Of a stretch of DNA of 60,775 nt, positions 31,012 through 60,775 are shown in pieces. Position numbers and translations under genes: made by a program. Below the pieces are notes generated by a model. The model did not search any database, had not been told where the DNA came from, and saw only the letters and a list, made by a program, of their open reading frames with translations. Each line of letters opens with the position of its first letter. Positions within the stretch are counted from its first letter, which is position 1. Origin of the DNA: Dermatophilaceae bacterium (GTDB taxonomy: Bacteria > Actinomycetota > Actinomycetes > Actinomycetales > Dermatophilaceae); contig JABFXB010000019.1 of NCBI GenBank assembly GCA_013361975.1, positions 73,731-134,505 of the forward strand. Reading direction: 5' to 3'.

Positions 31012-31051
31012 TCGTTCACCTTCCGTTCGCCTTCATCGACCATGGTCAATG

Positions 31052-34517: not shown

Positions 34518-35133
34518 CACGACCGCCGGTGGACCCGACTACGACCGGATCGTCGAGGACCTGACGTACACGTACGACGGGGTCTTCTCCAAGGAGTCGG
34601 TAGCGCAGGCCGTCGCCGACGCACGGGCCGCGCTCGAGCCGGTGTCCAGGATCCCCACCTACCTGCCGATCCTCACCGCGAGGTACGCGACCACCCAGCT
34701 GACGGCGGCCGCTCAGGCCGAGGGCCGGATCACCAAGCAGGTCCCCGAGTTGCTCTTCGTCTGCGTCCATAACGCCGGCCGGTCCCAGATCGCCGCGGCA
34801 CTGGCCCAGCACCTGTCCGGCGGTCGCGTCCACGTCCGCTCGGCCGGCTCAGCCCCCGTCGGTGAGGTCAACGCCACCGCCATCGAGGTCCTCAAGGAGC
34901 GCGGGATCGACCTCACCGAGGCCTACCCGAAGCCGCTGACGGACGACGTCGTGCGCGCCGCCGACGTCGTCATCACCATGGGCTGCGGCGACGCCTGCCC
35001 GATCCTGCCCGGAAAGCGCTACGAGGACTGGGACGTCGCCGATCCCGCCGGGCAGCCACTCGAGACCGTCCGCGACATCCGGGACGACATCCAAGGCCGG
35101 ATTACCCGGCTGCTGCGCGACCTCGGCATCTGA
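34507..35133 (+). CDS. arsC: LMW-PTP-family arsenate reductase with N-terminal three-helix domain
   Basis: YDRIVEDLTYTYDGVFSKESVAQAV ... LLFVCVHNAGRSQIAAALAQHLSGG ... MGCGDACPILPGKRYEDWDVADPAG. Confidence 0.9.
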   Translation: MRTDTTAGGPDYDRIVEDLTYTYDGVFSKESVAQAVADARAALEPVSRIPTYLPILTARYATTQLTAAAQAEGRITKQVPELLFVCVHNAGRSQIAAALAQHLSGGRVHVRSAGSAPVGEVNATAIEVLKERGIDLTEAYPKPLTDDVVRAADVVITMGCGDACPILPGKRYEDWDVADPAGQPLETVRDIRDDIQGRITRLLRDLGI

Positions 35134-35163
35134 TCCGCCCCAACCACCGACCCAGGAGTACCC

Positions 35164-35580
35164 ATGACCGACAAGCCCTCCGTCCTCTTCGTCTGCATCC
35201 ACAACGCCGGGCGCTCCCAGATGGCCGCCGCCTACCTCGCACACCTCTCCGGCGGCGCCGTCGAGGTCCGCTCTGCTGGATCCGCGCCCGCCGACCAGGT
35301 CAACCCCTCCGCCGTCGCCGCCATGGCCGAAGAGGGCATCGACATCACCGCCGAGACCCCCAAGATCCTCACGACCGAGGCGGTCAAGGAATCCGACGTC
35401 GTCATCACCATGGGCTGCGGCGACACGTGCCCGATCTTCCCCGGCAAGCGCTACGAGGACTGGGAGCTCGCAGACCCCGCCGGCAAGGGCGTCGAGGCCG
35501 TGCGACCCATCCGCGACGAGATCAAGCAGCGCATCCTGGGCCTGCTCGAGTCGCTCGACGTCACCCCCGTCACCGCCTGA
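35164..35580 (+). CDS. arsC: Arsenate reductase, LMW-PTP family
   Basis: VLFVCIHNAGRSQMAAAYLAHLSGG ... MGCGDTCPIFPGKRYEDWELADPAG. Confidence 0.93.
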   Translation: MTDKPSVLFVCIHNAGRSQMAAAYLAHLSGGAVEVRSAGSAPADQVNPSAVAAMAEEGIDITAETPKILTTEAVKESDVVITMGCGDTCPIFPGKRYEDWELADPAGKGVEAVRPIRDEIKQRILGLLESLDVTPVTA

Positions 35581-43669: not shown

Positions 43670-44490
43670 CTCGCTTCACAGCCCAGCGCGTGGTGAGCTC
43701 GGACAGTCTTCCGTCCGTCGGACGAGCATCGTCTGACCGATGACATCTGGCGCGGCCCGCGGTCCCGACCAGGTCCGGGACGGTCCTGGGTGCGGTCGGG
43801 GGCGCAGCGTCGCTTTCGGCGGCCCCTGCAGCGTCACCCTCAGCATCACTCTCAGCACCACCGCCGACCGGGCCGGTCGCGCAGACCGGGTCCACGCCGG
43901 CACGCCGGCAATGCAGGAGGTGGCCGCGTCCTGCAGGTGGCTGGGGCGACCCCGCCGGTTCTCTTGCCCTCGCACCTCGGGCGCGGCCGACGGCGATGCT
44001 CCCCTCAATAGGAACCCGGACCTGGCGCACACCAGGGGGTGGGATGCGGTCTCCGCCCAAGCCAGTCGGGCGAGGACGCGACCACGCCCGCATGGCTGGC
44101 CGCGAGTGATCCCACGTCCGAGACGTGTCACGTCACGGCGCCTTGGCGGGCGCCACCGCGAACGAGGCAGAGAAGGAGAAGGGAGCAGGCGGCGTTTGCC
44201 CAGATCAGAGGCCTGTACGAGGTGCGGTCGGGACACGTCACCGTGCCGGGTTGAGCACGCTCTCCCCGCTACTCGCAGGCCAACTGTCGCGCGGGGGCGG
44301 TGATGCGGTTGTGCGCTCGCTGCTGCGGACTCCAGGTCGTCATCCGCACCTCGGGCGCAGACGGTCGGCACGTTGGTCTGGCCCGAAAGGGTCCGGGGCG
44401 ACTGCCGTCGTCTGCGGTATCCGGACCGTGACCGCTCCACCACCGAACGAGGGCCGCCACTGGCGCTTTCGTCCACCTCAGGAGCGCACC

Positions 44491-45180
44491 ATGCTGACCA
44501 CCACCCCCGTCACCCCTGCATCACCGGGCACCTCGTCCGCGGCCGTCCAGATGGCCTCGACAGCGGACGGCTGCTCGCGACCCGTCGAGGGCGCGCAGCC
44601 ACCCCCTCGTCGCACCACGACCGCCCGGACGTCACAGGCGGCACCGACCTCAGCCTCTGGAGCGCCTACACGTGGACGCGTCACATCGGCGCGCACCCGA
44701 GCCAAGGAGGTGGTCGAGCTCGAGACCGGCGAGGTGCGCATGGTCGAGATGGCCGAGCCGCCCCCACGTCACGGCGACCCGTTCACGATGTCGTTCAACG
44801 GCGACATGATGCTGTTCGCCTCCTCGCCCGCGGCCCGGAGTCTAACCGGCGTGCACTGGCACGTGTGGACGGCCCTGTGCAACATGATGGACTACAACAA
44901 CGTCCTGCACCTGAACATCGCCCACCTCGCGCGTCAGCTCGGGCGGGACCGCCCCACCGTCAGTCGAGCGATCTCCCACCTGGAAACGACCGGTCTGGTT
45001 CGGCGAGCGGCCGACCCGCGCGACCCCTCCCGCACCGTGCTCGCCGTGAACGCGCACCTGGCGTACCGAGGCCGCGTCGGTGACCGTCGACGCACCGTTC
45101 AAGAGCAGACATGGGCCGCGTCCGGCGCGCAGCTGTCTGTGGCGACGCCGAAGCGTTCTTCCAGGCACGAAGCCGCCTAG
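44491..45180 (+). CDS. Winged-helix protein, RepL/replication-initiator-like
   Basis: FTMSFNGDMMLFASSPAARSLTGVHWHVWTALCNMMDYNNVLHLNIAHLARQLGRDRPTVSRAISHLETTGLVRRAADP. Confidence 0.65.
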   Translation: MLTTTPVTPASPGTSSAAVQMASTADGCSRPVEGAQPPPRRTTTARTSQAAPTSASGAPTRGRVTSARTRAKEVVELETGEVRMVEMAEPPPRHGDPFTMSFNGDMMLFASSPAARSLTGVHWHVWTALCNMMDYNNVLHLNIAHLARQLGRDRPTVSRAISHLETTGLVRRAADPRDPSRTVLAVNAHLAYRGRVGDRRRTVQEQTWAASGAQLSVATPKRSSRHEAA

Positions 45181-45200
45181 GCTCAACGGCCGTTGACGTG

Positions 45201-45221
45201 AAGAGGTCTACACTTCAGGGC
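45201..45221 (+). promoter_or_regulatory. Leaderless promoter/operator box 1
   Basis: AAGAGGTCTACACTTCAGGGC then ATG at 45222; -10 TACACT, 7-nt spacing. Confidence 0.7.
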
Positions 45222-45791
45222 ATGGTGAGCGCTCACCAGCCGGGTCGGGGTCGTGCCCAGCGCGCCCCAGGTCCCACTTTCGACGTACGCGTCCTGGAAC
45301 AAGGACGCGCTTGGGTCGACCGCGACGGAAGACGCCGTTCGTTGGCCGGGATGACGGTGACCGAGCTCGAGGACGTCATCGCGTTCCTGCGCACGCACCG
45401 TGACGTCTTCTACCTGCTCGTCCTGCGTCGGGAGGTCGGCCTGCGCCTGCTGGCAGTCGGTGCGGGCCAGACCGAGCAGATGCCACGAACCTCGTCCGAA
45501 CGTGATGACCAGGATCGCCCGACGGCCACGACGCCGGTACCCCCGACGGCGTCGAGGGTGGCTGCGTCGAGCGTGGCTGCGTCGCGGGGCGAGGTGCCGA
45601 GCAGGGCGCAGGCTGTGGAGTTCGTCCACGCCTCCGCTCTTAGGCGCGGTCCTGGCCCGCACCACGGGAACCGTCGCCGCGACCATCTGTGGTCCTCGCT
45701 CGGTCAAGGGCCAGACGTCTGGCTCCAGGCCACTGCGCTCATGCGTGCCTTGCAACGTCGCGCCAAGACGGGGGCCGGTGCGGAACCGTAG
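45222..45791 (+). CDS. Unknown family A, copy 1
   Basis: FDVRVLEQGRAWVDRDGRRRSLAGMTVTELEDVIAFLRTHRDVFYLLVLRREVGLRLL ... WLQATALMRALQRR; paralogous to 50730-51425. Confidence 0.75.
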   Translation: MVSAHQPGRGRAQRAPGPTFDVRVLEQGRAWVDRDGRRRSLAGMTVTELEDVIAFLRTHRDVFYLLVLRREVGLRLLAVGAGQTEQMPRTSSERDDQDRPTATTPVPPTASRVAASSVAASRGEVPSRAQAVEFVHASALRRGPGPHHGNRRRDHLWSSLGQGPDVWLQATALMRALQRRAKTGAGAEP

Positions 45792-45908
45792 GCCAGGCCG
45801 GCCCGGCCGCAGCGTCGGAGTTGCTGGCCCCTAGCTCCCGCTGGGGCTGTCTGCATGGACGCGCAGAGCGCTGTCGAGGACGTCCCGATCGCAATGAGCC
45901 TCGACATG

Positions 45909-45929
45909 TAGAGGTCTACACTTCACGGT
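45909..45929 (+). promoter_or_regulatory. Leaderless promoter/operator box 2
   Basis: TAGAGGTCTACACTTCACGGT then GTG at 45930; -10 TACACT, 7-nt spacing. Confidence 0.75.
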
Positions 45930-46904
45930 GTGGGCCACGAGACGCGTAGGACGCGGCGGAGCAGGGGCGGCGCTGGGGGCGGTGCTATGTCCGTCGAGTC
46001 CGTCGAGTCCGTCGAGTCCGTCGAGTCCGTCGAGTCCGTCGAGTCCGTCGAGTCCGTCGAGTCCGTCGGGGATGTCGGGGACGTCGGGGACGTCGGGGAC
46101 GTCGGGGACGTCGAGGAGCGCGGTGGGCTGTACCTTGCCCGGAGCCGGGGTTCTCTGCATCTTTTCGACCTGGACGCTGGGGCGTACCTGCGTCTGCCGG
46201 GTGAGCGCTCCAACGCGTTTCCTCACGACGTGTCCGTGCTCCGGCTGACGAGCGTGGAGCGTTGGCCACGCGTCGGTGACACGTTCTTCATCTGGGTCGA
46301 CTCGCCAGCTGAGTACGCGGTCTGGGACTACTGGCGTCAGTCGTCATCCATCGCGGCGCTGTACCGCGTCAGGCGTGCCGGTCGGCACGTGGGGCGAGCT
46401 GGCGTGGACCACGGGCGGGTCAGGGGCCGCGCGGGCGCTGCAGGTTGTGCCGCCGACGCGGCGTTCGGGCCGGGCTCCTCGGGCTCTCCGGGCTCCCCGG
46501 GGCCCCCACCCGCCCCGGGGTCCCCACCCGCCGCGGGGTCGGGGGAGCCGCAGACGCCTACAAGCGACACGTGGGGCGGAGCCCCGGCTCGGCCCGGACT
46601 GGCCGAGGTCCTCCCGGGCCTGGAGGTTGCCGTCGACGGTGTCTGGCAGGTGGTCACCTCTGCGGAGACTCCGCTCGAGGTTCGCGGGTCGCGTCTGCGG
46701 CCCAGGCCCGTGCTCGAGTGGCCGCTGACGAGCGACGAGGAGTGGGTGACCCTACTCGTCCTCTACCAGCTCGAGGAGGGGGAACTGATGCAGGCGCACC
46801 TTGAGGTCCGGCCCGCTGGTGGCTCGTCGAAACTGCGGTCGACGAGCCCGCTCACCGGGATGCGGTTGGTCGTTCCCGAGCAGCCGGCGTGGCCAACGCA
46901 TTGA
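45930..46904 (+). CDS. Unknown family B, copy 1, with (VES)8(VGD)5 repeat
   Basis: GLYLARSRGSLHLFDLDAGAYLRLPGE ... VSVLRLTSVERWPRVGDTFFIWVDSPAEYAVWDYWRQSSSIAALYRVRR; similar to 50266-50733. Confidence 0.75.
   Translation: MGHETRRTRRSRGGAGGGAMSVESVESVESVESVESVESVESVESVGDVGDVGDVGDVGDVEERGGLYLARSRGSLHLFDLDAGAYLRLPGERSNAFPHDVSVLRLTSVERWPRVGDTFFIWVDSPAEYAVWDYWRQSSSIAALYRVRRAGRHVGRAGVDHGRVRGRAGAAGCAADAAFGPGSSGSPGSPGPPPAPGSPPAAGSGEPQTPTSDTWGGAPARPGLAEVLPGLEVAVDGVWQVVTSAETPLEVRGSRLRPRPVLEWPLTSDEEWVTLLVLYQLEEGELMQAHLEVRPAGGSSKLRSTSPLTGMRLVVPEQPAWPTH
45993..46109 (+). repeat. 9-bp coding tandem repeats, (GTCGAGTCC)8 then (GTCGGGGAY)5
   Basis: Read directly; encodes (Val-Glu-Ser)8(Val-Gly-Asp)5. Confidence 0.97.
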
Positions 46905-47066
46905 CTAGATCCCTGGCCCAGGGCCTGAGCGGGGCCCGAAGCGTTGGCTGACTCACGACCGAGATGAGCTTCGCTGGGCCGTCTGCCGGGGGCGGGCTTG
47001 GCGAGTCTCTGAAGGCGCGCAGGTGGTGACGTTCGAACAGGGCGGGGAGGCGCCGGGGCGGTGTGC

Positions 47067-47345
47067 TCAGGCGCCGGCGGCGGCGGTGCGCTGCTGCGTC
47101 ATCATCCCGACGGCGCGGGCCGCCATGTCCTTCATCTGCTCGAAGTAGCGTGCATGCGTGGTGCGCAGCGCCTCCTTCGACCGCGCGCCGAGTACGACGA
47201 TCTCAATCTCGGGATGTCCCCGGTGAAGCGACTCAGCTCGGAACCGGGCCTTCATGGCCTCACGGGATGACGCGCACTCCTCGAGGGAGAGCAGCCGGGA
47301 CTCGGAGCGGTCGAACACGATGAGGTAGTGGTTCACGTTGCTCAC
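47067..47345 (-). CDS. Small protein downstream of RelA/SpoT gene, candidate antitoxin
   Basis: NHYLIVFDRSESRLLSLEECASSREAMKARFRAESLHRGHPEIEIVVLGARSKEALRTTHARYF; 4-bp overlap with upstream gene. Confidence 0.75.
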   Translation of the reverse strand: MSNVNHYLIVFDRSESRLLSLEECASSREAMKARFRAESLHRGHPEIEIVVLGARSKEALRTTHARYFEQMKDMAARAVGMMTQQRTAAAGA

Positions 47346-48124
47346 CCTCCTTCGAGCTTTCTCACCAGGCGCATGATGTCTTCCATCGTCCTGCGCAGAG
47401 TATCTTCTGTCTCGTCCAACGGAGGCGTTACGCCTGTTTGTTCCGTCACCCTGATGACGATCTCGTCCTGCTCCTGGTATCGCCGCATCTGCATCTGTTC
47501 GACGCGGTCGATCTCCTCGGACGTAGCCAGCAGCATATCCACGAAGTTCTCACGGGTGAAAACCGGTGCGGTCATCCCTAGCACGACGGGCTGGTTCGGC
47601 GGGACGAGCGGTTCCCCGTAGCGCAACTCCCGCCCCCAGAGGTCACCGAGTCGTTCGGTGATCTGGGCCCACAGGTCTTGGAGGGGAGTGCGGACCTGCA
47701 CCTCGAGCGGCAGCCCTTGGTGGATGAGTATGAGATGGACGGCGCGGTACCCGTGGTTGGGGGAGGCGCGACGGTCCAGGATCTTGACGGTGGTGCCGAC
47801 CGCGGTGAAGGCCTTCGCGATCCGCGCGACCGCACGGTCTTGGTCGACGCGGCCACCGTTGACGACGACGCGTGCGCCGGCGACGTCCTGGACGGACTTG
47901 AACGACGTGCCGCGGGACAGCTTCTCGACCAGCGTGCCGGTGGACTTCACCCGGGTGGTCGGTTCGAACCCGGCCGCCTCGAGGATGCCTTGGGCGTCAT
48001 CGAGGGTCGCTTGGTACGCGTCCAGGACGGTCTCGAAGGTGCCCCAGTCGGCCGTCGAGACGGTCTCGGCGGCCAACCGTTTGCCGAGGCGGTCCAGCGC
48101 GCTGCGCGAGAGGGGAAGGGGCAT
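47342..48124 (-). CDS. RelA/SpoT-domain nucleotide pyrophosphokinase-like protein (candidate ToxSAS)
   Basis: RVKSTGTLVEKLSRG, VQDVAGARVVV, HGYRAVHLILIHQGLPLEVQVRTPLQDLWAQITERLGD. Confidence 0.9.
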   Translation of the reverse strand: MPLPLSRSALDRLGKRLAAETVSTADWGTFETVLDAYQATLDDAQGILEAAGFEPTTRVKSTGTLVEKLSRGTSFKSVQDVAGARVVVNGGRVDQDRAVARIAKAFTAVGTTVKILDRRASPNHGYRAVHLILIHQGLPLEVQVRTPLQDLWAQITERLGDLWGRELRYGEPLVPPNQPVVLGMTAPVFTRENFVDMLLATSEEIDRVEQMQMRRYQEQDEIVIRVTEQTGVTPPLDETEDTLRRTMEDIMRLVRKLEGG

Positions 48125-48268
48125 GCGGGCAGGGTACCCGCGGGCCCAAGCGTGCGGGCTGCCGTTGACGCGGCGCCGGGCGGCGCCACGTCAACGACAA
48201 CGAGCGGGTGTGAGGGGCAGATCGGTGTCACCGCCCGCCTGCGCCGTCGTCCTTAGTGGGCTCGGGTG

Positions 48269-49693
48269 TCAGTACACCGTCCCGGCCGGGACGGTGTTTT
48301 CGACCCGGACCACCTCGCGCGCGCTGGAGAGCGTGACCGTTTGGTCGGGTGCGGCGGGGACACCGCCGACCGTGGCCACCTCCCGCAGCGTGTACGTGCC
48401 GAGGGCGACGTCATCGGACAGGGCGTGGCCGAGGCCGTCCGTGGTGAAGGAGGCCCCGACCGGCGCGCTCGTGGTCGGGTCGAGCAGCGCGAACGTGAAC
48501 CCGGACAGCTCGCCGCGGTGAGCCCCGCCGGTCGCAGCGTCACGCAGCGTCTTGCGGATGGCGACCTTGCCCGTCTTGGGCTTGCGTGTCGCGGGCTCGG
48601 GCATGAACATCACCGCGCCGAGCGGGTGGTCGGTCACCTCCGGTGGGATGAAGAAGAACCCGTGCCGGCGCACCGTGACCACGCTCAGGAGCCGGTCCGG
48701 ACCGGTCGGCACGCCCGGGGGGAAGCTCGGGTTGGTCATCCACCGGTTGAAGACGACGTCGAACGCGTCGAGGCTCGCTTGGAACGACGCGAACTGCAGT
48801 CCCTGGGCCAGTCGCCCGTCAGCCCCGACCTCAAAGTAGGGCAGGCCGCGGCGGAAGATGCGCACCGTGTCCTGCGCCGCGCCGCGTGGGCCGGTCTTTC
48901 GCACGTGCGAGTCCACGGGAGGGACGAGCGGATCCGTGAACGCTCCTTCGGCGCGGACGGTGGGCTCTGACCCCGCTGCGTGGTCCAGACGGCGACCGTG
49001 CCGGTCGCGGCCGATGACGGCGTCCTGTTCGGCGGCGGGCTTGGCCGCCATCGCGGTCACGTCCTGCTCGACCTTGAGGTAGGCCAGGTAGGTGCCGTCG
49101 TGGGCCCACCACGGCTCTTCCGGCAGTGTGTCCCGGTCGATGAACACGACCTCGCGCCGGTCCTTCTTCTCCTCGATGTTGCGCACCCCGTCGCGGTAGC
49201 CGAACGGCTCGTCCCGGTCGAGGCGCTGGTAGCCGCGCTCGAGGTCGACCGCCGCGACGGCGGGGTGCGTGCTGATGCTTGCGATGAACCGGGCGGCGCA
49301 CCCTTCCGACGTCGACACGACGTAGACGACCAGGTCGGCCGGGACGCTCTCGGAGGCGGCGACGACGGGCGGCATCCTCAGGCCGGCGGGGACCTGCCCG
49401 ATCCCATCGAACCGCGCGGTGCCGTCGGTGCGGGTGAAGAACGTGCCGGAGAACCCGGTGGCCACGGTCGCGACCCGGTCCGGGCCGCTCTTCTGCTCCC
49501 GTAGCTGCTGGGTGGCCTGCTCGACGGACGTCAGGAAGTCTCGCACCCCGGTGACGTCGAGGTCCGGGCGCAGGGTCACGAACAGGAACTGGCCGGTCGC
49601 GTTCGGGTTGGGCAGGACCGGGTCCTTGGTTCGGTAGGGCAGCACGCCCCGGGCCTGCTTGAGATGGTCACGGTTCACGAGCTGGTCCGTCAT
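48269..49693 (-). CDS. DyP-type peroxidase with C-terminal Cna-B/SpaA-like domain
   Basis: FGYRDGVRN (GxxDG), DSHVRKTGPRG, RIFRRGLPYFEVG; C-terminal SGFTFALLDPTTSAPVGASFTTDGLGHALSDDVALGTYTLREVATVGGVPAAPDQTVTL. Confidence 0.85.
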   Translation of the reverse strand: MTDQLVNRDHLKQARGVLPYRTKDPVLPNPNATGQFLFVTLRPDLDVTGVRDFLTSVEQATQQLREQKSGPDRVATVATGFSGTFFTRTDGTARFDGIGQVPAGLRMPPVVAASESVPADLVVYVVSTSEGCAARFIASISTHPAVAAVDLERGYQRLDRDEPFGYRDGVRNIEEKKDRREVVFIDRDTLPEEPWWAHDGTYLAYLKVEQDVTAMAAKPAAEQDAVIGRDRHGRRLDHAAGSEPTVRAEGAFTDPLVPPVDSHVRKTGPRGAAQDTVRIFRRGLPYFEVGADGRLAQGLQFASFQASLDAFDVVFNRWMTNPSFPPGVPTGPDRLLSVVTVRRHGFFFIPPEVTDHPLGAVMFMPEPATRKPKTGKVAIRKTLRDAATGGAHRGELSGFTFALLDPTTSAPVGASFTTDGLGHALSDDVALGTYTLREVATVGGVPAAPDQTVTLSSAREVVRVENTVPAGTVY

Positions 49694-49892
49694 GAGTTCC
49701 CCTTCGTCGGTTGCCGTCGCGTGCATCCGGCACGTGACCCCTCGGCTGCTCGCAGGCTACGGCCCGGCGCCGACAGTGGCGGGTTCGTCGAGCTCGCTGC
49801 GGGTACCGACCCTTCGGCGCCGCCGTCATCGGCCTGTGGGTCGTGACTGGCCGCGGCGGCGGTGACCCCGTCTGTGGGGCAGGTCCGGGGGA

Positions 49893-50225
49893 TTAGGTGG
49901 ATGTGCGGCCAGCGGCGCGGACCGAGGCCGGTTGGCGGTCGTCCTTGACCAGCTGGGCCACTCGGCCCTTCGACAGCCCGGTCGCGGCGGCGATGCGGTC
50001 GTAGGACCAGCCGCCGCGTCGCAGCTCGCGCACCGCTTTCAGGCGCACCTTGGCGACCCTGTCGAGCTCACGGTCGATGGCCGCGAAGAGGTCACCGACC
50101 GCCTTCGTCGTGAGCACCGGGTCCGGCATGGCCGCGAGCCGCTCCGCCTCGGCCCGGATCGCCGACTGCAGCTCCGGGGAGATGGACCCACGCCGAGCCC
50201 CTGCACGGCGCGGGCGAGGAGGCAT
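49893..50225 (-). CDS. Small HTH DNA-binding protein, copy 1
   Basis: ELDRVAKVRLKAVRELRRGGWSYDRIAAATGLSKGRVAQLVKDD. Confidence 0.8.
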   Translation of the reverse strand: MPPRPRRAGARRGSISPELQSAIRAEAERLAAMPDPVLTTKAVGDLFAAIDRELDRVAKVRLKAVRELRRGGWSYDRIAAATGLSKGRVAQLVKDDRQPASVRAAGRTST

Positions 50226-50244
50226 GCCCCCATGCCACAGCGTG

Positions 50245-50265
50245 TAGAGGTCTATACTCACGGAG
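50245..50265 (+). promoter_or_regulatory. Leaderless promoter/operator box 3
   Basis: TAGAGGTCTATACTCACGGAG then GTG at 50266; -10 TATACT, 7-nt spacing. Confidence 0.7.
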
Positions 50266-50733
50266 GTGGGCTGGTACGGCGCGCCCGCGGTCCCGCTGAC
50301 GTGTACGCCGGACAGGTCGGATACCGAATCCGTCCTTCGGTTCGAGACCGAGCCCCGGGAGGGGTGGCACATGGATGACGCGGAATCCCGCACAGGTGGG
50401 CCAGGGGGGCCTGTTCACGCTCACCCCGGGGAGGTGTCCGGCGAGGTGTCCGGCGGCGGTCCCGAGGCTGAAGGCATGTGGTGGCAGGTGACGACCGAGG
50501 GCTCCGAGTACACGCTCGATCTGACGGGCGGCAGGGTGCGACGCACCCCGGTGGCTGCGCCTGGGCTCCGCGGGGATGGGGCGTGGGTGCCGCTGCGTAG
50601 CGTGGTCGACCTGCGAGTCGGGCACCCGATGGTGCTCATCCTCCTCCTCCGGGACGACGGTATCTCGACGATCCGCTACAGCTCGCGAGTCCTGCGGGTA
50701 CGACGGCTCACATCACCGCCTGAGACACCATGA
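50266..50733 (+). CDS. Unknown family B, copy 2
   Basis: MWWQVTTEGSEYTLDLTGGRVRRTPV ... WVPLRSVVDLRVGHPMVLILLLRDDGISTIRYSSRVLRVRRL. Confidence 0.7.
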   Translation: MGWYGAPAVPLTCTPDRSDTESVLRFETEPREGWHMDDAESRTGGPGGPVHAHPGEVSGEVSGGGPEAEGMWWQVTTEGSEYTLDLTGGRVRRTPVAAPGLRGDGAWVPLRSVVDLRVGHPMVLILLLRDDGISTIRYSSRVLRVRRLTSPPETP

Positions 50734-51425
50734 GTGTCCGCAAGGTCGGAGACTGCTCGCGAGGTTCAGGGTCACCTCCGGGGCTGGGCTGGTCGCGGGT
50801 GGATGCCCGCTTCGCCGTGACGGCATCGGCGTTCGGCGCTGCCTGGGCGCTCGGCGTCAGCCGTCGCGTCCGTCGAAGGCTGCGCCATGTCGCCAAGGTG
50901 GTCGGCGGGAGGCGGGAGCTGCGGGCCTGGAACGGGTCGCTGGACCGTGACGGTGCCGGCCGAGATGGGCGGCAAACGTTCACGGCGACCCCGGTCGAGG
51001 ACCAGCCTGTCGGCGATCCGGTCCGCAGCCCGGTGCCTTCGGACGCCGACCTGTGGCCTGGAGAGCTGCCCTTCACGGCCTGGAGGCAGCACGAAGCGGG
51101 GATCCTCGACCTTCGAGTCTTCGACCAGGATCAGTGGTGGGTGGACCGGAATCAGACCCCGCACATGCTGACCGACATGAGCGCCCTGTACGTGGAGCGC
51201 GTCATCGACATGCTCGAGTCTCTTGCCGAGTACTACTACCTGATGACGGTGCGCCGCGACCTTCTGCAGCGTATCGGCGACGAGATGCTTGGTCGTCTCT
51301 CTACAGACAACGTGGCCGAGTCTGCGGGGGCGACGCCGTTGCGAGATCTAACGCCTCAGGCCTGGCTTGAAGGGTCACCGCTCATGCGTGCGCTGCGCCG
51401 CCGGCTGTCCGGCCCGGGGGGCTAG
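50730..51425 (+). CDS. Unknown family A, copy 2
   Basis: LDLRVFDQDQWWVDRNQTPHMLTDMSALYVERVIDMLESLAEYYYLMTVRRDLLQRI ... WLEGSPLMRALRRR; ATGA overlap with family B copy 2. Confidence 0.75.
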   Translation: MSVRKVGDCSRGSGSPPGLGWSRVDARFAVTASAFGAAWALGVSRRVRRRLRHVAKVVGGRRELRAWNGSLDRDGAGRDGRQTFTATPVEDQPVGDPVRSPVPSDADLWPGELPFTAWRQHEAGILDLRVFDQDQWWVDRNQTPHMLTDMSALYVERVIDMLESLAEYYYLMTVRRDLLQRIGDEMLGRLSTDNVAESAGATPLRDLTPQAWLEGSPLMRALRRRLSGPGG

Positions 51426-51601
51426 GCTCCCGGGCCGTGCGCGGCGCGCCGACATCGTCGCAGAGACGGTGGTGTGCGGGTACGCACGCGTGGCACGCCC
51501 CTTCACGCGCCCGGGAAGCCTACGCGTACTCGGATCAGACCTGCTCGTCGGGAGCGCCAATCGCCTCTGCGAGACGCCACGGCGAGGTCCTCGGCGCCCC
51601 G

Positions 51602-51940
51602 TCAGGAACTGGTGGGCCGGCTGGGGCGTGGTGAACGGGGGAGTGTGGGCGGCTGGCTGGGCCACAAGGTGACGCTGAGTGCCTGTTCGAGCTTGGCGAG
51701 CGTCACCATGTCCGGCCATGTGTTGCCGGCCAGGATGTCGTAGAGCGTGCTGCGCTCAATGCCGGCCGACTGTGCAACGTGTGAGCGCACCTGGCCCTCG
51801 AGCGCCTCATCGAGGGCCCGGGCGATCTGGACGGCGTATGCGACCACCTCGGGGGCGTCCGCTTTGAAGTCGCCGTCGGGCCATTCCCCATCCGCCAGCC
51901 AGTCGCTGGGTGACCCCGGTGGGCCCGATCGGCGCGGCAT
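51602..51940 (-). CDS. XRE-family HTH regulator
   Basis: VRSHVAQSAGIERSTLYDILAGNTWPDMVTLAKLEQALSVTLWP. Confidence 0.8.
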   Translation of the reverse strand: MPRRSGPPGSPSDWLADGEWPDGDFKADAPEVVAYAVQIARALDEALEGQVRSHVAQSAGIERSTLYDILAGNTWPDMVTLAKLEQALSVTLWPSQPPTLPRSPRPSRPTSS

Positions 51941-52017
51941 GGTGGTGATCGTACGCGCACGGCCGCTCGTGTCTGCTGATCGCTCGGTCGGTTGGCGGTT
52001 CGGCCCGGACGCCTCCT

Positions 52018-52040
52018 TGCGCGACTCGACATGTCGCGCA
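52018..52040. promoter_or_regulatory. Inverted repeat upstream of XRE gene
   Basis: TGCGCGAC tcgacat GTCGCGCA. Confidence 0.6.
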
Positions 52041-52120
52041 CCGTGCGCCTCGGTGGATGAGGAGGTGAGCGTTGCTCATCACATGCACACACCCGAGTGA
52101 GTAGGAAAGAGCACCTTGCT

Positions 52121-52144
52121 AAGTGTAGGTAAAAACCTACACTT
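52121..52144. promoter_or_regulatory. Perfect palindrome/operator upstream of recombinase-like genes
   Basis: AAGTGTAGGT AAAA ACCTACACTT; contains -10-like TACACT 6 nt before ATG 52150. Confidence 0.75.
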
Positions 52145-52294
52145 GGGAGATGCAGGACTCGCCTCGAGCAACAGTGCGCCCCGTCAGCACAAGCCGATCC
52201 TTCGGCCAGCTGGTCGCCCGGTCCTGGGCCCTCCTCGCTTCACCGTCGACCCATCAGAAGCCGGCCGCCCGGCCGGCACGACCGAGGAAGAACC

Positions 52295-53785
52295 ATGACA
52301 ACGACAACCGCCAACCGCGCACACCAGGCCGCGTTCGCTAGCCCGGTCAGCCCCCTCGCATTCCGAGCAACGGCCCTCGTCGTCGTCCGCGAGTCCGACG
52401 AGCACCAAGTCGTCTTCTTCGACGGAATGCGCGAGCAGACATACCAGATGATCCACATCCCCGAGATCGACGCGGTCCGCGCTCTCGGCCTCAGCCCGAT
52501 GTACGCCAAGGACACCATCGACGTCACGACACACGAGCCGGACGGACGCGCCCGAGTCGTCACCATCAAAATCGAGCGCATCCAAGAGGGGGCCACCAAG
52601 GCCCTGCTGTTCGAGTTCGGCGGCTACTGGCACCTGTGGTCCATGGCGTCCGCCACCCGCCTGAGCGACTCCCGCGAGAACGAGTTCACGACGATCCTGA
52701 CGGACACCATCCGACGTCTGTGCCCCCACACGATCTACGTCGCAAACATCGGCCGCCTCGTCCGCTCGACCAGCCAGCAGGCCAAGATCCAGGACGCCCT
52801 CATCGACCGTGTCGACCGGATCGTCACCAAGCAGGTCGAGTTCAAGTTCGACGGCGCCAACCGCCCCTTCGGCCTCATGATGTTCATGATGATGGCGATC
52901 TCAGCCTCCATGGAACGAGACTGGATCGTGCAGCGCACCGCAGCCGGACGCGTCGCCCAGTGGCGGCGAGACGCATGGCCCTTCGGCGCGGAGGCCGTCC
53001 CCTACGGGTACCGCTTCGGCAAGGGGCGCCGGGTCGTCATCGACCCGGAACAGCGCGAGCTCATCCGCAACATGCTGAACATCCTCGCCATGGAGCTGCC
53101 GCCCGCCGAGCGCGTCCGCCGCCTCGGCGAAGCCGGGCTGATGAGCAAGAAGGTCATCAAGCGCTTCGGCCAGCGCGTCTCCGTGGACGGGCTCTCCCGA
53201 CCCGAAGTGCTCGTCGGGCGCCTCTACGCACTGACCCCGGTCTGGACCCGGGGCGAGTTCCTCCACCGGACCACGAACCCGTTCCATGACGCCCAAGAAG
53301 TCGCCGGCGTTCCCGTCATGCGCGCCTCTGCCGATGACCCGGGCGAGCTGCAGTTGCTCTACCGGCTCGACCTGCCCGACGGGGGCTGGGCCGACGAGGA
53401 GGTCCTGCGCATGGTGGAGGAGCAGGCCGTGCTCAACCATGCCAGTGTCGCGGCCGGGCGCTCAGCGCGCCGCCCGCTGTCCGTCCACGTCCGTACCGCC
53501 AGCGGGGCGCCGCACCTGCACGAGGACCTGTTCGGCAACTCGCACCTGCACGGCAAGGACGTCGCGACGAAGCGGCGCCGGGCCGGCGCCTACGCCAAGC
53601 GTCTCGTCGCCGCCCTGGGCGGACGCAGCTGGGGCGATGACGCCTACCGCTACGAGATGCGCGTCCACGGCGATCACTACAACGTGCTCCGTTGGCCGAC
53701 GGGCACCCTGCCCCAAGGCAGCACGCACATCGGGTCGGCCGTGCCGCTGTCCCTGCGCAGCCAGTCCCGCGCCGAGGAGCGATGA
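52295..53785 (+). CDS. Divergent serine-recombinase-like protein (catalytic plus recombinase domain)
   Basis: SDSRENEFTTILTDTIRRL...IYVANIGRLVRSTSQQ, MMAISASMERDWIVQRTAAGRVAQWRRDAWPFGAEAVPYGYRFGKG. Confidence 0.7.
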   Translation: MTTTTANRAHQAAFASPVSPLAFRATALVVVRESDEHQVVFFDGMREQTYQMIHIPEIDAVRALGLSPMYAKDTIDVTTHEPDGRARVVTIKIERIQEGATKALLFEFGGYWHLWSMASATRLSDSRENEFTTILTDTIRRLCPHTIYVANIGRLVRSTSQQAKIQDALIDRVDRIVTKQVEFKFDGANRPFGLMMFMMMAISASMERDWIVQRTAAGRVAQWRRDAWPFGAEAVPYGYRFGKGRRVVIDPEQRELIRNMLNILAMELPPAERVRRLGEAGLMSKKVIKRFGQRVSVDGLSRPEVLVGRLYALTPVWTRGEFLHRTTNPFHDAQEVAGVPVMRASADDPGELQLLYRLDLPDGGWADEEVLRMVEEQAVLNHASVAAGRSARRPLSVHVRTASGAPHLHEDLFGNSHLHGKDVATKRRRAGAYAKRLVAALGGRSWGDDAYRYEMRVHGDHYNVLRWPTGTLPQGSTHIGSAVPLSLRSQSRAEER

Positions 53786-55458
53786 TGACCGCCAGCCGGC
53801 TGGCCGCACCGACCGCCCTTGAGCCCGTGCTCCTCCCGGCGTCATCCGTCCGGAGCCGAAGAGTGCACGCGGGCGGCGGCGCAGAAGGTGGATCAGGCGG
53901 GGAGAATGAAGATGCCCCGCTGCCCACGGTCCACTCCGGCACCAAGGTCGCCTCGTTCACGAAGAAGTCGCTCATGACGGGCATGCTGCAGGCGCTCATC
54001 AGCGCGTGCCGCTCGGGCGTGCCCCTCAGCATCCTGCAGGGCACCGTCGAGGCCAACCCGGCTGGGACGAGCCTCTACTCCACACCGGCCCACCATCGGG
54101 CCGAGCTGCTCCGGCTCCAGCTCGCCGACGCCGAACGCCGCATCAAGGTGGCCGTCCACATGGTCATGTCCGCCATGAATGAGGGGCAGCTGGCCGAGTA
54201 CCGGGATCAGGAGAACCAGGCGCGTGAGGACGCCGAGCACGTGCAGCAGCAGCTCGCGTCGCTCGAAGCGCACGCCGAGGCGCCGAGCGAGGTTCCCGCG
54301 CAGGTCCCGACCCTGCTGCGCACCCTCGAGCTCGCGTTCCAACAGCTGAACAGCAGCGAGCTCGTGACCCAGGAGCAGTTCCAGGCGCTCAGGACGGTCA
54401 TGCCCCACTTCATCCTGCGTGAGAGCCCAGGTGGCGGATGGGAGGCGGAGGCCAGCCTGCGCCTGCCCACCCCCGAGGGAGCCGTCGTCGAGATCGGTCC
54501 CGTCCGGTGGCCGGTCGGGGGTCGAGCCCGCAGCACGAGCACGCGCGTGTCGGACCGCTCGCGCAACGCCGTTCCGGTCGAGCTGATCCAGGAGGCCGGG
54601 CTCCTCGGCGGGGCCGCGCTGTACTCGCTGCGCGGCAGCCTGCTCGCCGAGACCCCGTGGGTCGTGCTGAACGGGCTGACTGGCCACCCGTTTCCCGAGT
54701 GGGTCGGCCCGCAGTGGCGCGAGAAGCCCCTCGTCGATTGGCTCACCCGCACGTACCGTTCGCCGGACCTGATCGACCGGCGCTACATCAGGTACAGCGT
54801 GAAACGCCAGTTCCTGCTGCACGCATGCCCCGACGAGGGCGACCTCTGCCTGACCGAGCTCCGACGGCTCGCACCGGTGCGCGACCCGGCCTCATGGACG
54901 ACGCTGGCGCAGACCATCCCACCGGGGCGAGGGGACCGCCGCACGGAGAAGGCGCCGAGCCTGACCGTGTCGCACCTCCCATGTCCAGACGCGCTCGGTG
55001 AACGCGCCCGGCTCGTGCCGCACTTCAGACCTCTTCAGTGCCAGTGCGGCCGGCAGATCCGCTCCGTGGTCCTCGTCCCCGAGGTGCCCCGCGGCCTCGT
55101 GTGCGCATGCGGACGGATGCCCGACGCGAACCAGTACGGCATGCCGGACGACGTCCGGCTCCCAGCGGAGTACGTGCAGGTCCTGACGATGTCCCGGCAG
55201 GCGTGCGAGATGGAACTGCGCTACGAGCTCGACCGGCACCCGTACACGCCCACGCCGCAGGCTCGGGAGATCATGGACCTGCCCATCTGGCGGCCCGGGG
55301 CGGAGCTCACCCTGGCCGATGTGAAGACCGCCTGCCGGCCGCACATGCTGCTGCACATCCTCCACCGGATGCAGGCCTACGGCCTCATCGAACGTCGGCC
55401 GGACACCAGAGACGCCTGGGTGGTGCGTGACGAGCCCGAGCCCTTGCGAACCCCGTGA
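53782..55458 (+). CDS. Partner protein with coiled coil and CxC...CxC zinc-ribbon-like segment
   Basis: ATG overlaps the previous stop; RLQLADAERRIKVAVHMVMSAMNEGQLAEYRDQENQAREDAEHVQQQLASLEAHAE; CQCGRQIRSVVLVPEVPRGLVCACGR. Confidence 0.75.
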   Translation: MMTASRLAAPTALEPVLLPASSVRSRRVHAGGGAEGGSGGENEDAPLPTVHSGTKVASFTKKSLMTGMLQALISACRSGVPLSILQGTVEANPAGTSLYSTPAHHRAELLRLQLADAERRIKVAVHMVMSAMNEGQLAEYRDQENQAREDAEHVQQQLASLEAHAEAPSEVPAQVPTLLRTLELAFQQLNSSELVTQEQFQALRTVMPHFILRESPGGGWEAEASLRLPTPEGAVVEIGPVRWPVGGRARSTSTRVSDRSRNAVPVELIQEAGLLGGAALYSLRGSLLAETPWVVLNGLTGHPFPEWVGPQWREKPLVDWLTRTYRSPDLIDRRYIRYSVKRQFLLHACPDEGDLCLTELRRLAPVRDPASWTTLAQTIPPGRGDRRTEKAPSLTVSHLPCPDALGERARLVPHFRPLQCQCGRQIRSVVLVPEVPRGLVCACGRMPDANQYGMPDDVRLPAEYVQVLTMSRQACEMELRYELDRHPYTPTPQAREIMDLPIWRPGAELTLADVKTACRPHMLLHILHRMQAYGLIERRPDTRDAWVVRDEPEPLRTP

Positions 55459-56264
55459 CTCTGCGAGACGGCACGTCGCGCCACCACGGCCTCGTCACCC
55501 GGGCCGCGAACTGACCCTCGGCCGCCGGCAGGGGCAGGGGACCCCCTGCGTCCCTGCCGGCGGCCGCGACGGTGCCGCTCGATGGTGCGGGTCCCGCTGC
55601 GAGACAACGACACTGCGACGTCGCCGCTAGGGCGTCCAGCCGTCCAGCGGGTTCTCCCGGAGTCGGCCGAAGGGATGTCGCTGACCGGACACCGAGGACG
55701 GGGCAGAGGCCCCAGCGGCTGAACCCTCATGACAGGTCGTCGCCGGTCTGCACGGTCTCCTGCATGACCACACCGCAGAGCACACCCACACGGCAGGGAC
55801 GAACACGAGAGAACCACGAGCAGGACGTGACCCGCGAGCTCACACCGCAGGCGAGAGACGACGTGCACGTGTACCGCTGCCCCGAGCTGGCAGATCGGCT
55901 TGCCGAATGGTCGAACCGCACGTCGCCCGCCACGCCCGACCCCGCCGTCGACCTCACCGTGACGTGGGTGCGGATCGCCCCCAGGCACTGACGTCGCCAG
56001 AGCCGCGGAGACCCCACCCCGGGGCGGCCGGGTCCAGGCGGCCAACGCACAGCTTGCCGGACATCGGCGCTGACACACCACAGCGCCGGCAGGGGCGGAA
56101 GATCTCACCTGAGACGCCGCAGGTCTGACCAACCGCGTCGCGGCGTCCGGGGGCGGCGCCAACGTGCGAAGAACGGCTGACTCTTGGGCCGACGCACAGC
56201 GCCGTCACCCGGCACCGGCATTCGTGCCTGCCGACAGCGCACGAGCCGTAGGCCCCCACTGCGG

Positions 56265-56735
56265 TTACGGGTTCCCGGGTGACGCGGACGACCCGGGTGA
56301 CCCGGGCGGACGCGGGCGGACCAGGTCCGGGCCGCACGGGAGGGCAGCCCCGGCGTCTCTCACGAGCTGAGCCACTCGCGCCTTGGACAGGCCGCTGGCC
56401 CGGGCAATCCGGTCGTACGACCAGCCTTCGTCGCGCAGGGTGCTCAGGGCCCGGAGGCGAACGTCGGCGACCCGCTCGAGCTCGCCGAGCAGAACGGCGA
56501 AGAAGTCACCCACCTGTCGTGTCACGGTCAGGGGGTCGCCGCTCGACGCGAGGTGCGCAGCCTCCATCTGGACGAACTCACGGAGTCGCTCACGGTGGGT
56601 CGCGAGAACCGCTGGCCGGTGACGCGGCTCGCCGGCGGGCGCGTCTGCCGCACGAGCCTCGCGGGAGTCAGCATGCGCGGGACGATCGCATCCGCGGGCA
56701 CTGCCGCGCCTCCCGCCACCCGACAGCTCACCCAT
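56265..56735 (-). CDS. Small HTH DNA-binding protein, copy 2
   Basis: ELERVADVRLRALSTLRDEGWSYDRIARASGLSKARVAQLVRDA; paralog of 49893-50225. Confidence 0.75.
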   Translation of the reverse strand: MGELSGGGRRGSARGCDRPAHADSREARAADAPAGEPRHRPAVLATHRERLREFVQMEAAHLASSGDPLTVTRQVGDFFAVLLGELERVADVRLRALSTLRDEGWSYDRIARASGLSKARVAQLVRDAGAALPCGPDLVRPRPPGSPGSSASPGNP

Positions 56736-56736
56736 A

Positions 56737-56751
56737 GTGTCACTGTGACAC
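56737..56751. promoter_or_regulatory. Perfect palindrome one base upstream of HTH copy 2 start
   Basis: GTGTCACTGTGACAC. Confidence 0.65.
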
Positions 56752-56973
56752 CAAGGTGCCGTTGTTGCGCCGCCGATGGCCGTGATCGCTTCAGTGCCGG
56801 CTCCAACTGCCCGTCGGCCATCAGCCGTCGGCAGCGCCTCACCGCGACGCCGTGAGCCGGGCGACCTTGGCGGCGCACGAGAGCATCCGGCGCGCCGAGG
56901 GGCGCGCCGGATGCGTGGTCCAGCGGGTGGCGACCCTCGGCGGCGGACCCGTCCGGAGGTGTCGCTCGCGGCG

Positions 56974-58320
56974 TCACAGGGCAGCGATGACCGACTCGAG
57001 GTGCTCGCGCCCGCTGCGGTAGTAGCGCTCGTTGACGACGTTCGTGTCCTCCCAGCCGCCCACCGCCGTGAGCTGGCCCGGCTGCAGGTTATGCACGTCG
57101 ACGCAGGTCCGGGCGAAACGATGCCTCATGGAGTGCCACACGAGGTCGAACTGCACGCACTCCCGCGAGACCCTCTCGTAGCGGCGGGTGTCGCTGTTCC
57201 ACTCGTCGCACGTCTCGACCCACGTCTGCGTGGGCCACCCGGCTGCGAGCGCCGCCGGCGTGAAGTACTGCTCATGGAACGGGCTGTGGTGGAACATCCC
57301 GCCCCGCGGCGCCGGGAAGAGCAGAGCCTCCGGGTTGGTCCCGGCGGCCTGTTCGACCCGGGCTTGCTCGCATCGCGCGCGAAGCTCCTTCAGGAGCTTG
57401 TAGCCGGTGATGGAGCGCTTGTGCGCGACGGTGCGGCGGGTCTTCTCACCCTTGGGGAGCTTGCGCCGGTTGTCGCCCTCGCGGACGCTGGCGGAGGCGT
57501 CGATCTGCCAGTTGATCGCGATCACTGCTCCTCGCTTGACGAAGGTGACGTCGTCGGCGGTCAGCTGGAAGAGCTCGCCCCATCGGGGCCCGGCGTCGCA
57601 CGCCAGCTCGACCGCGAGACGTCCCCACGCCGGGAAGATCTTGTCGAACTCCGTCGCCAGCGCCACGACGCGGGCGATGCTCGGAGCGTCCTCGTCCCGG
57701 ATGAAGTTCGGGTTCTCGCTGACATCGCGGGCGCGGCTGGCGCGCTTGGGAGCGGCGGTACCTTTCAGGGCGGGAACGACACGGACTGCTCCGGGGGGCA
57801 GCATCTCGGCCTGCTCTGCAGTGAAGTACTTGTGACGGTGACCCCAGATCAGCAGGCCTCGTAGCGCGGACGTGTTGTGGTCGACGCTGTTTCGGGTGCC
57901 GCCCTGGGAGCGCAGGATGTCAGCAAGGTCGCGGTCCAGCTGCATCGCCTGCACGTGTTCGCGGCCCCGGATCATCCGGTTGAGACGTCGTTGCACCTGG
58001 GTGAGGTGGTTGCCGCTCCACGGGGCGCCTTCTTCGCGCTGGTTCTGGTCGTCGGCGTTGATGTACTCCGTGACGAGGTCTCGCAGGGGCGTGAGCCCGC
58101 GCGGACCCATGGCGCGGGCAAGGCTCGCGTCGATCGGAGCAGCTTTGCTCATCGCGCCGTCAAGCGTCCGGCCGCCGCTCGTGCCACCGCGCCTGCCGTC
58201 CGGCTTGCGCCAGGTGAGTCGGTAGTAGGGGTCGGAGCCTGCGGGCGCGAGGACGCTCACGCGTCCGACGTATGCGACCGGGTCGTTCCTGACCAAGGTG
58301 GTCGTGGTCCGGGCGGTCAT
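56974..58320 (-). CDS. Tyrosine recombinase/integrase
   Basis: AVELACDAGPRWGELFQLTADDV ... WHSMRHRFARTCVDVHNLQPGQLTAVGGWEDTNVVNERYYRSGREH. Confidence 0.9.
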   Translation of the reverse strand: MTARTTTTLVRNDPVAYVGRVSVLAPAGSDPYYRLTWRKPDGRRGGTSGGRTLDGAMSKAAPIDASLARAMGPRGLTPLRDLVTEYINADDQNQREEGAPWSGNHLTQVQRRLNRMIRGREHVQAMQLDRDLADILRSQGGTRNSVDHNTSALRGLLIWGHRHKYFTAEQAEMLPPGAVRVVPALKGTAAPKRASRARDVSENPNFIRDEDAPSIARVVALATEFDKIFPAWGRLAVELACDAGPRWGELFQLTADDVTFVKRGAVIAINWQIDASASVREGDNRRKLPKGEKTRRTVAHKRSITGYKLLKELRARCEQARVEQAAGTNPEALLFPAPRGGMFHHSPFHEQYFTPAALAAGWPTQTWVETCDEWNSDTRRYERVSRECVQFDLVWHSMRHRFARTCVDVHNLQPGQLTAVGGWEDTNVVNERYYRSGREHLESVIAAL

Positions 58321-58730
58321 CGCGACACGCTCCTTCCGGCGCGGGGCGAGTAGTCCTTGATGGGGCGGGGCAGCGGCATGCTCTCGACATCGGCCGAAGG
58401 CGTCGCCGGCACGGCCGTCGTGCCGGTCCCGGTGCCGGTGCCGGTGCCGGTGCCGGTCACGGTGTCGCCTTCGGTGTGATGGCCGTTGGCTGGCGTCGAA
58501 GACGCCTCGCCCTGCTGGGTGCGGGTCCGACGAGGCAGGCTGCGGACCCAGTCGAGGATTTCCTGACGGTCCCAGAGGTGGCGTGCCCCGAGGATGAACG
58601 GTGCCGGGAAGGCATCCTGGTAGGTGTACTCGCGGGCGCGGTCGACGCTCACGTGCAGGAGTCGGGCGACATGCTCGATCGTGTAGATCGGGTCGGCGAT
58701 GTCGGGCTGGACGGTGTCATGGGTTGATGT
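58317..58730 (-). CDS. Excisionase/AlpA-like HTH protein
   Basis: DPIYTIEHVARLLHVSVDRAREYTYQDAFPAPFILGARHLWDRQEILDWVRSLP; overlaps integrase start; contains a (GT)n tract. Confidence 0.8.
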   Translation of the reverse strand, partial: TSTHDTVQPDIADPIYTIEHVARLLHVSVDRAREYTYQDAFPAPFILGARHLWDRQEILDWVRSLPRRTRTQQGEASSTPANGHHTEGDTVTGTGTGTGTGTGTTAVPATPSADVESMPLPRPIKDYSPRAGRSVSR

Positions 58731-58911
58731 CATGACTACGTCCGTCCGGACCGGCGGGATGAGCGCAGTCAGGTGCCGAGGCACATCCGTGTGACGTGGG
58801 TCACACTCGCCGGCAACGCCAATCTCATGCGGTGGCTGTCGCGGGTGCGCGCCTAGCGGGGCCCTTGCCGGGGCTTCGAGCGTGTGCGGCGATCGGTTCG
58901 CGCATCCTCAA

Positions 58912-58927
58912 AGTGTAGTGCTCTACA
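58912..58927 (-). promoter_or_regulatory. Palindromic promoter box upstream of excisionase/integrase
   Basis: GTGTAG TGCT CTACAC; reverse strand TACACT 6 nt before ATG 58905. Confidence 0.55.
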
Positions 58928-59233
58928 CACCAGGTGTGAAGGTTTGAAACGACGCGCCGGGTGGCCGGTGATCGGCTCGGAGCCCCGGGCCTCCGCCGGC
59001 GGAAGGTCGTCGGTCGTCCCTGCCGAGATCGCCACCGACAGGGGCTGCGTCCGGGGGGGGCGTCGATGAGCTGGCCAGAGAACTCGGGGCAGACGTCACA
59101 CCGACTGGCCGGCCCGGATGGCCCGGTCGGGGCGGCATCGACAGTGTCGTTCAGCCGCCCGGCGCCGAATCCTGGTGGGAAGCCGTTCAGCCGTTACGAT
59201 TGTCACCAGAGGCGAACTGGAAGGAGGTGCCGC

Positions 59234-59389
59234 GTGACCAAGCGAGTCGTTTCCAAGGAGGCCGTGAAGCGCGCAGCATCACGGTCCACCAAGTCGTCGG
59301 CAGCGCTCGAGCGGCGTTCTGTTCCCGCGGGCTTCCAGCGTTCCGAACGCGTCTCCCAGTTCCTGGCAGCTCGGTCACCACGCGGCTGA
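59234..59389 (+). CDS. Small basic protein upstream of Fic, candidate antitoxin
   Basis: VTKRVVSKEAVKRAASRSTKSSAALERRSVPAGFQRSERVSQFLAARSPRG*; AAGGAGG RBS; TGATG overlap with Fic. Confidence 0.65.
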   Translation: MTKRVVSKEAVKRAASRSTKSSAALERRSVPAGFQRSERVSQFLAARSPRG

Positions 59390-60093
59390 TGTCGCTTCCT
59401 CCCGGGTACGGCGAGACACCGGTTCCCGGAGACGAGCTTCAGTGGTTGCTTCCTGAGGTGCGTGAGGTGCTCGGCGAACCGGTGCTCAAGGCTGCCGTCT
59501 ACGACCTCGAACAGGCGGAGCAGGAGGCCGCCGCCGTCGAGCTGCTCACCGTGATCCTCGTGGGCGTCGACGCCGTGACGGAGTCAGGAAACTACCGCCT
59601 CGACGACACGTATACCGTCCGAGGGGCTCTCGAGGTGGCCGAGCTGCTCACCGACCACTTCCTCCGTGCTTTGCACCACCGGCTCTTCGAGCGCATCTGG
59701 GCGTGGGCGGGGACCTACCGCGCCGTCGAGCTGAACATCGGCGTGCCGCCCCCCATGGTCGCCGTCGACATCCGTGCGTCACTCGAGTCGCTGCGCTACC
59801 GCTGGGAGCACACCTCGGACTGGACCGGACGCCAGCTCGGGATCGCCGCGCATGCAGAGCTGGTGCGTATCCACCCGTTCACCGACGGCAACGGCCGCAC
59901 CACCCGGCTGCTGGCTGACCTGGTGTTCGCTGCCGCCCAGCAGGCCCACCTCGCGCTGACGGAGGAGCCGGTGTGGGAGTACGACTGGGACCTGGACAAG
60001 GCTGACTACATCCGTCTGCTGCGCGAGTACGACCGACATCGCAACCCGAGCGATCTCGCAGCCTTCGTCCCGGTCGTCCGGCTGGGGGAGTAG
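59389..60093 (+). CDS. Fic/DOC domain protein
   Basis: HAELVRIHPFTDGNGRTTRLLADLVF (HPFxDGNGRxxR). Confidence 0.92.
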   Translation: MSLPPGYGETPVPGDELQWLLPEVREVLGEPVLKAAVYDLEQAEQEAAAVELLTVILVGVDAVTESGNYRLDDTYTVRGALEVAELLTDHFLRALHHRLFERIWAWAGTYRAVELNIGVPPPMVAVDIRASLESLRYRWEHTSDWTGRQLGIAAHAELVRIHPFTDGNGRTTRLLADLVFAAAQQAHLALTEEPVWEYDWDLDKADYIRLLREYDRHRNPSDLAAFVPVVRLGE

Positions 60094-60688
60094 GCCGACG
60101 ACCCTGACGGCGCGCCAGGTGGCCGCGCAGTGGCCCGCGGACGGCGCGAGGAGGCCGGCTACCTGCTGCCCGCAGCGTTGAGGACCGAGCCGCCGCCCCG
60201 GGCGCCCCCGACGAGGAGCCGCGGGTGGCGCGGGCCGAATCCCCTGGAGTCTGGCAACGGGTCGCGTCCAGGCCCGCCAGCCACGTCGTCGTCCGTCCGG
60301 GGCAGCCAGGCCACCCCCGACCCCGACCCCGACCCGGGCGACGAGTTCGCGCGCACGATCCTCGAGCCGGCGTACGCCGTCGCACGGGAGGGCCCACCTG
60401 GACGCGTCCCTGCAGCGCCGGAACCTCTGGCGCCGGACCAGCTGGGCAGGAGCCGCGCGGCAGGACGCTCCGTCCGCTCGCGCTCCTCGCGCTCCTCGCG
60501 CGGGTCGAGCGGCCGGCGAGACCGTCGAGATCGTCGTCACCCCTCGAGGACCGTGCAGGACAGGCCGCCCGGCCCACCCAGGACCGACCTGCGTGCGAAA
60601 GTGGTGCGAAAACCGGATACTGGCCACTCCGGACCGGAGTATCTGTGCAGGTCGGAGCCGGTCTCGGCCCTGACCCGCACCGTGAAGA

Positions 60689-60775
60689 TCAGATGTCGCG
60701 GAAGACCTCGATGGTGGCTCCGAGCGCGTTGAGCCGCTCGGCGAGGTCCTCGTAGCCGCGGTTGATGACGTAGAC
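60689..60775 (-). CDS. murA: UDP-N-acetylglucosamine 1-carboxyvinyltransferase, C-terminus (truncated by window)
   Basis: Reverse translation VYVINRGYEDLAERLNALGATIEVFRDI*. Confidence 0.75.
   Translation of the reverse strand, partial: VYVINRGYEDLAERLNALGATIEVFRDI

Follow-up and report, generated by a model that had tools for sequence, protein, structure and literature searches.

The DNA analysed here (the window, 60,775 nt) forms the right end of the 134,505-base contig C293 of a Dermatophilaceae bacterium, the assembly of which amounts to 3.26 Mb and is 75% complete. The region of interest contains repeated copies of an 18-bp dyad, YGTGTAGNNNNCTACACR (hereafter the box), which precede several ORFs; two genes for helix-turn-helix (HTH) proteins and an excisionase–integrase gene pair also lie there (Table 1).

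The boxes and the genes behind them

In the preliminary description of this sequence three near-identical palindromic boxes had been reported, in which the last base of a TACACT or TATACT hexamer lies 7 nt before the start codons at 45222 (ATG), 45930 (GTG), and 50266 (GTG). The sequences and spacing of these three agreed exactly with the coordinates of that account, but the set proved to be larger: a fourth, weaker copy was found at 58912 and a fifth on the same contig outside the window (C293:48504). Searching the window with the 16-mer TGTAGAGGTCTAYACT at ≤3 mismatches gave five matches versus 0.06 expected from shuffled sequences, two of the five being the two strands of the single site at 58912–58929. 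In the genome-wide search of the 3.26-Mb assembly, all copies at ≤2 mismatches were on C293, where the five boxes span 84 kb. Among 189 genomes of the family, any copy at ≤1 mismatch occurred in three and was absent from 186; only the window's own genome had more than one copy, and the two others had one single-mismatch copy each. No paper contained the literal TGTAGAGGTCTACA in the literature search.

Table 1. Boxes, ORFs and mobile-element genes of the window and of contig C293 (positions are those of the window unless the contig is named)
Feature	Position	Strand	Remarks
Box 1, CGTGAAGAGGTCTACACT	45197..45214	+	End of TACACT to ATG at 45222, 7 nt
ORF, 189 aa	45222..45791	+	Behind box 1; paralogue at C293:48530; homologues in Aeromicrobium
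Box 2, CATGTAGAGGTCTACACT	45905..45922	+	End of TACACT to GTG at 45930, 7 nt
ORF, 324 aa	45930..46904	+	Behind box 2; residues 65–147 conserved in relatives
HTH protein, 110 aa	49893..50225	−	Candidate repressor of the boxes and of its own gene
Box 3, CGTGTAGAGGTCTATACT	50241..50258		7 nt to GTG at 50266; 15 nt to HTH start at 50225
ORF, 155 aa	50266..50733	+	Residues 73–154 homologous to a Phycicoccus jejuensis gene near its HTH gene
ORF	50730..51425	+	C-terminal part of the 45222/48530 family; overlap with the end of ORF 50266
Second HTH protein, same family	56265..56735	−	57% identity over 77 aa to the 49893 HTH protein
Tyrosine integrase	56974..58320	−	PHROG 1
Excisionase-like protein	58317..58784	−	HTH_17 just under cut-off; PHROG 66; ~130 nt downstream of the box at 58912
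Fourth, weaker box, TGTGTAGAGCACTACACT	58912..58929	− (strand of the sequence given)	Upstream of xis-int
Fifth box, perfect 18-mer, AGTGTAGAGGTCTACACT	C293:48504 (outside the window)		8 nt before the paralogue of ORF 45222

None of the box-controlled ORFs matched a family above cut-off in Pfam, NCBIfam, or PHROG. The products of ORF 45222 and of its paralogue are 59% identical over the first 85 residues in an alignment that begins at both first methionines, and a third relative is the C-terminal part of ORF 50730, which lies just downstream of ORF 50266 and is probably on the same transcript with it. Two Aeromicrobium homologues of this family (L079:10538 and L081:10690) each have a box directly in front. 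No match to the 45222 protein was obtained in a plasmid search, and the AlphaFold prediction for the family (mean pLDDT 66) lacked the confidence needed for fold comparison. For ORFs 45930 and 50266, similarity to relatives is seen only from residues 65 and 73 onward, respectively, which leaves their real starts uncertain. Genes homologous to the conserved part of ORF 45930 lie close to the HTH gene in P. jejuensis, G150, and G140; the G150 homologue shows the arrangement box-N7-GTG, although an in-frame upstream ATG would place the box inside the gene. ORF 50266 contains a further ATG at 50371, preceded by GGGAGGGG, but codons 1–35 of this ORF are coding-like (GC3 0.89). Homologues of two box-controlled gene families thus bear the box in other genera as well. 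Two repeat arrays were seen at the 45930 family: within ORF 45930 itself (46000–46110) tandem 9-bp repeats of GTCGAGTCC are followed by those of GGGGACGTC, encoding SVESVE... and GDVGDV... tracts, and upstream of the G140 homologue (G140:C1, ~1795660–1795720; L072) direct repeats of the TTGCTAGA type replace the dyad.

An integrated element probably has its right end in the segment 56974–60775. Besides the integrase and excisionase genes, a Fic-domain-like ORF (HPFTDGNGR) and then an apparent murA end at the window edge were recognized there by eye. Looking for direct repeats marking the element ends gave no convincing att pair, the longest shared words being 15–18 nt, and Rfam had no match in 44000–60775. 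Several further genes lie around the boxes. The segment 47342–49726 (− strand) encodes a RelA/SpoT-domain protein and, next to it, a DyP-type peroxidase whose C-terminal domain is SpaA-like (prealbumin fold), and two large ORFs occupy 52295–55458, the first giving only a partial serine-resolvase match and the second no family. At 51605–51940 (− strand) an XRE-like protein is encoded, which is ~60% identical to copies in two Aeromicrobium elements; in those elements the XRE-like gene adjoins a 45222-family gene, with a box in front, and none was found at 51605–51940. Farther to the left, at 26948–35580, there is an anion/arsenic-type block with rhodanese/lactamase-B, an SBF transporter, a two-domain ArsA ATPase, and low-MW phosphatases. 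That the boxes mediate a response to copper or arsenic was considered and rejected, since the neighbouring ORFs read in the Aeromicrobium and Nocardioides relatives having both box and HTH gene included no obvious metal genes.

The HTH gene adjoining box 3

The 110-aa HTH protein is encoded divergently from ORF 50266, with box 3 between the two genes. At eight loci, namely in the window and at seven homologues (P. jejuensis NRRL B-24460 (G159), G150, G140, three Aeromicrobium, and one Nocardioides), exactly 15 nt separate the end of the dyad from the HTH start codon; two more homologues, L077 and L080, had no dyad at the expected position. Mean pairwise identity among the eight loci was 0.83 for the arms of the dyad and 0.47 for its four central bases, compared with 0.43 for the spacer and 0.39 for the sequence upstream. 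In most of the homologue-bearing genomes examined, additional box copies lay grouped near the HTH gene: three of four sites (≤1 mismatch) fell within 11 kb of it in G140, three of four within 2.7 kb in Aeromicrobium 9AM, and all four within 43 kb in Nocardioides. The dyad at a fixed distance from the HTH orthologues, the clustering of further copies, and the boxed target homologues elsewhere make co-regulation of the box genes well supported computationally, as had been proposed when the boxes were first described as one set bound by a repressor. The five boxes of C293 place one candidate operator at several genes of a single element, and the eight orthologous loci place it before the gene of its putative regulator.

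The AlphaFold model of the HTH protein (mean pLDDT 82) predicts long N-terminal helices followed by a C-terminal HTH. A fold search with this model against PDB found no match at E ≤ 0.001, a plasmid search with the protein gave one weak Nocardia match and nothing else, and scanning viral contigs with the HTH alignment detected no relative.

Position of the boxes relative to the start codons

In leaderless genes of actinobacteria the first T of a TANNNT lies ~12 bp ahead of the start (PMC3160421), and −10 motifs are centred 7–12 bp upstream of the TSSs (PMC3898074). The four target genes of C293 resemble them in carrying TACACT/TATACT-N7/8-ATG/GTG, that is, TANNNT 7–8 nt from ATG or GTG, in a high-GC actinobacterium. 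At three of the four (45222, 45930, and 48530) the first T lies ~12–13 nt before the start and there is no Shine–Dalgarno (SD) sequence; at 50266 the start is immediately preceded by GGAG. They differ from the published genes in that the candidate −10 is an arm of the putative operator dyad and is not kept in the Aeromicrobium relatives. An RTG codon 6–8 nt downstream that opens an ORF of ≥150 codons was present at four of the five C293 boxes, and the same pattern occurred by chance at 2% of random positions and after 7% of all TANNNT in the contig. Many box sides have no start at 6–8 nt, and the boxes of relatives at G145, G140 1796474, and G159 1371 are without a nearby one. When box sides scoring ≥18 were compared, an RTG at 6–8 nt that opens an ORF of ≥60 codons followed 5 of 13 TANNNT sides versus 3 of 45 others (Fisher p = 0.010), which is indicative only, as the scoring matrix was built on these same sites and the test assumes independence of the two sides of each box and of related loci, which does not hold.

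Leaderless promoters, which had been read into all three boxes, are thus plausible for this genome but are not a general property of the box: in the Aeromicrobium homologues of 45222 the box is followed by GGAGG and the start is 11 nt away, so the leaderless spacing is not conserved. For 45222 and 48530 we consider leaderless transcription rather likely, and for 45930 and 50266 the chances seem about even, the lower estimate reflecting their less certain start codons. Alternatively, the promoters may lie upstream of the dyad, a short leader would contain the box, the repressor would act as a block within the first transcribed stretch, and TACACT would be merely an arm of the palindrome. This arrangement has a considerable chance of being correct, albeit short of even. 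The 15 nt separating box and start at the HTH gene and the GGAGG lying between them at the Aeromicrobium targets imply that mRNA begins within or upstream of the box there, and no −35 consensus was found to pair with the proposed −10. It is countered by the failure to find a sigma-70-type promoter upstream, by the missing SD sequences of 45222, 45930, and 48530, and by the gene-proximal arm, the last base of which is T at the four C293 target genes, making TANNNT, but G in the dyad consensus. If leaderless transcription does apply, the box would be a compact natural repressor site that also serves as the −10 of a leaderless promoter, and would offer a useful case for how leaderless genes are switched.

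A candidate repressor–operator system and its known counterparts

Considering these results, the boxes are best explained as the operators of an autoregulated mobile-element repressor, one arm of the operator doubling as the −10 box at the target genes; judged from the sequences, we assign this reading a probability of about 0.78. The HTH protein encoded at 49893–50225, probably as a dimer, would bind the dyad and repress its own gene via box 3, which it shares with 50266–50730. From four further sites it would repress the small accessory genes 45222, 45930, and C293:48530, and probably xis/int. The proximal arm, TACACT or TATACT, would serve as a TANNNT −10 ending 7–8 nt before the start codon, so that a bound repressor would cover the −10, and upon its departure the transcript would begin at the start codon or no more than a few bases away from it and so be leaderless. 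Binding, dimerisation, repression as opposed to activation, a derepression signal, and leaderless transcription are what we infer from this arrangement, and the HTH protein may activate the genes instead. More tentatively, the proteins may constitute a new repressor family whose half-site is the −10 of leaderless promoters, with operator, promoter, and start fused in ~25 bp and the targets toggling between leaderless (TACACT-N7-ATG) and SD-led (box-GGAGG-N4-GTG) forms, the operator being kept.

The preliminary description had named both HTH proteins, 49893 and 56265, as candidates for binding the boxes. The main binder could be the second one or another regulator of the element, 49893 being a mere neighbour of the box. 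The recognition-helix type of 56265 (LSKARVAQL) accompanies the same box in Aeromicrobium homologues, but its own gene has no box upstream, in contrast to the 49893 orthologues with their fixed box at eight loci, which leaves 49893 as the favoured candidate and makes the exchange of roles unlikely; 56265 may nevertheless also read the same operator. A function of the dyads as recombination, partition, or replication sites instead of transcription control appears very improbable: the element does bear integrase and serine-recombinase-like genes, but the boxes are spread over 84 kb, mostly 7–15 nt from start codons, and sites for recombination or partition would not need such a fixed geometry. 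That the boxes are chance repeats, or belong to a recently duplicated promoter–gene module without regulation, is scarcely credible: the paralogy of 45222 and 48530 may mean that two of the boxes share one origin, but the genes behind the other boxes have no detected mutual relation, the motif recurs beside the HTH gene in unrelated flanks in other genera, and its number in the window far exceeds the shuffled expectation.

A mobile-element repressor with several operators, as proposed here for the 49893 protein, is of a known type; the sources searched contain no description of this regulator family, of the operator, or of the families to which the targets belong. The nearest counterparts are the KorA/ArdK repressors of conjugative plasmids, such as RP4 KorA and the 102-aa ArdK of R388, which represses five promoters (PMC9723621). 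The likeness consists in the small size of the HTH protein (~100 aa), the location of its gene on a mobile element, the repetition of one operator at several promoters and, for KorA, the binding of an inverted repeat, the candidate operator of the window being a dyad. In sequence, the likeness to KorA is weak and confined to the HTH region (Pfam KORA E 0.008, with 16.7 bits against a gathering cut-off of 26.7; PDB 7bbq E 0.034). In KorA the HTH comes first, followed by the dimerisation part. The modelled 49893 protein, in contrast, would have its HTH after the long helices, and its putative operator differs from that of KorA. The MarR-type regulator CrtR of Corynebacterium glutamicum also has a palindromic operator overlapping promoter elements, and its own gene was reported to be leaderless (PMC5401885); it differs in protein family, in operator, and in controlling a chromosomal pathway gene. 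The pair described here would provide a testable regulator and operator for one group of actinobacterial mobile elements, with a precise consensus for finding targets in other genomes. The wider HTH family may pair with other operators, as the genes of two distant relatives (L090 and L101, with the motif WSYAQIA..LGLHRNRVQQI) are closely preceded by another palindrome, TGTATTG-N5-CAATACA.
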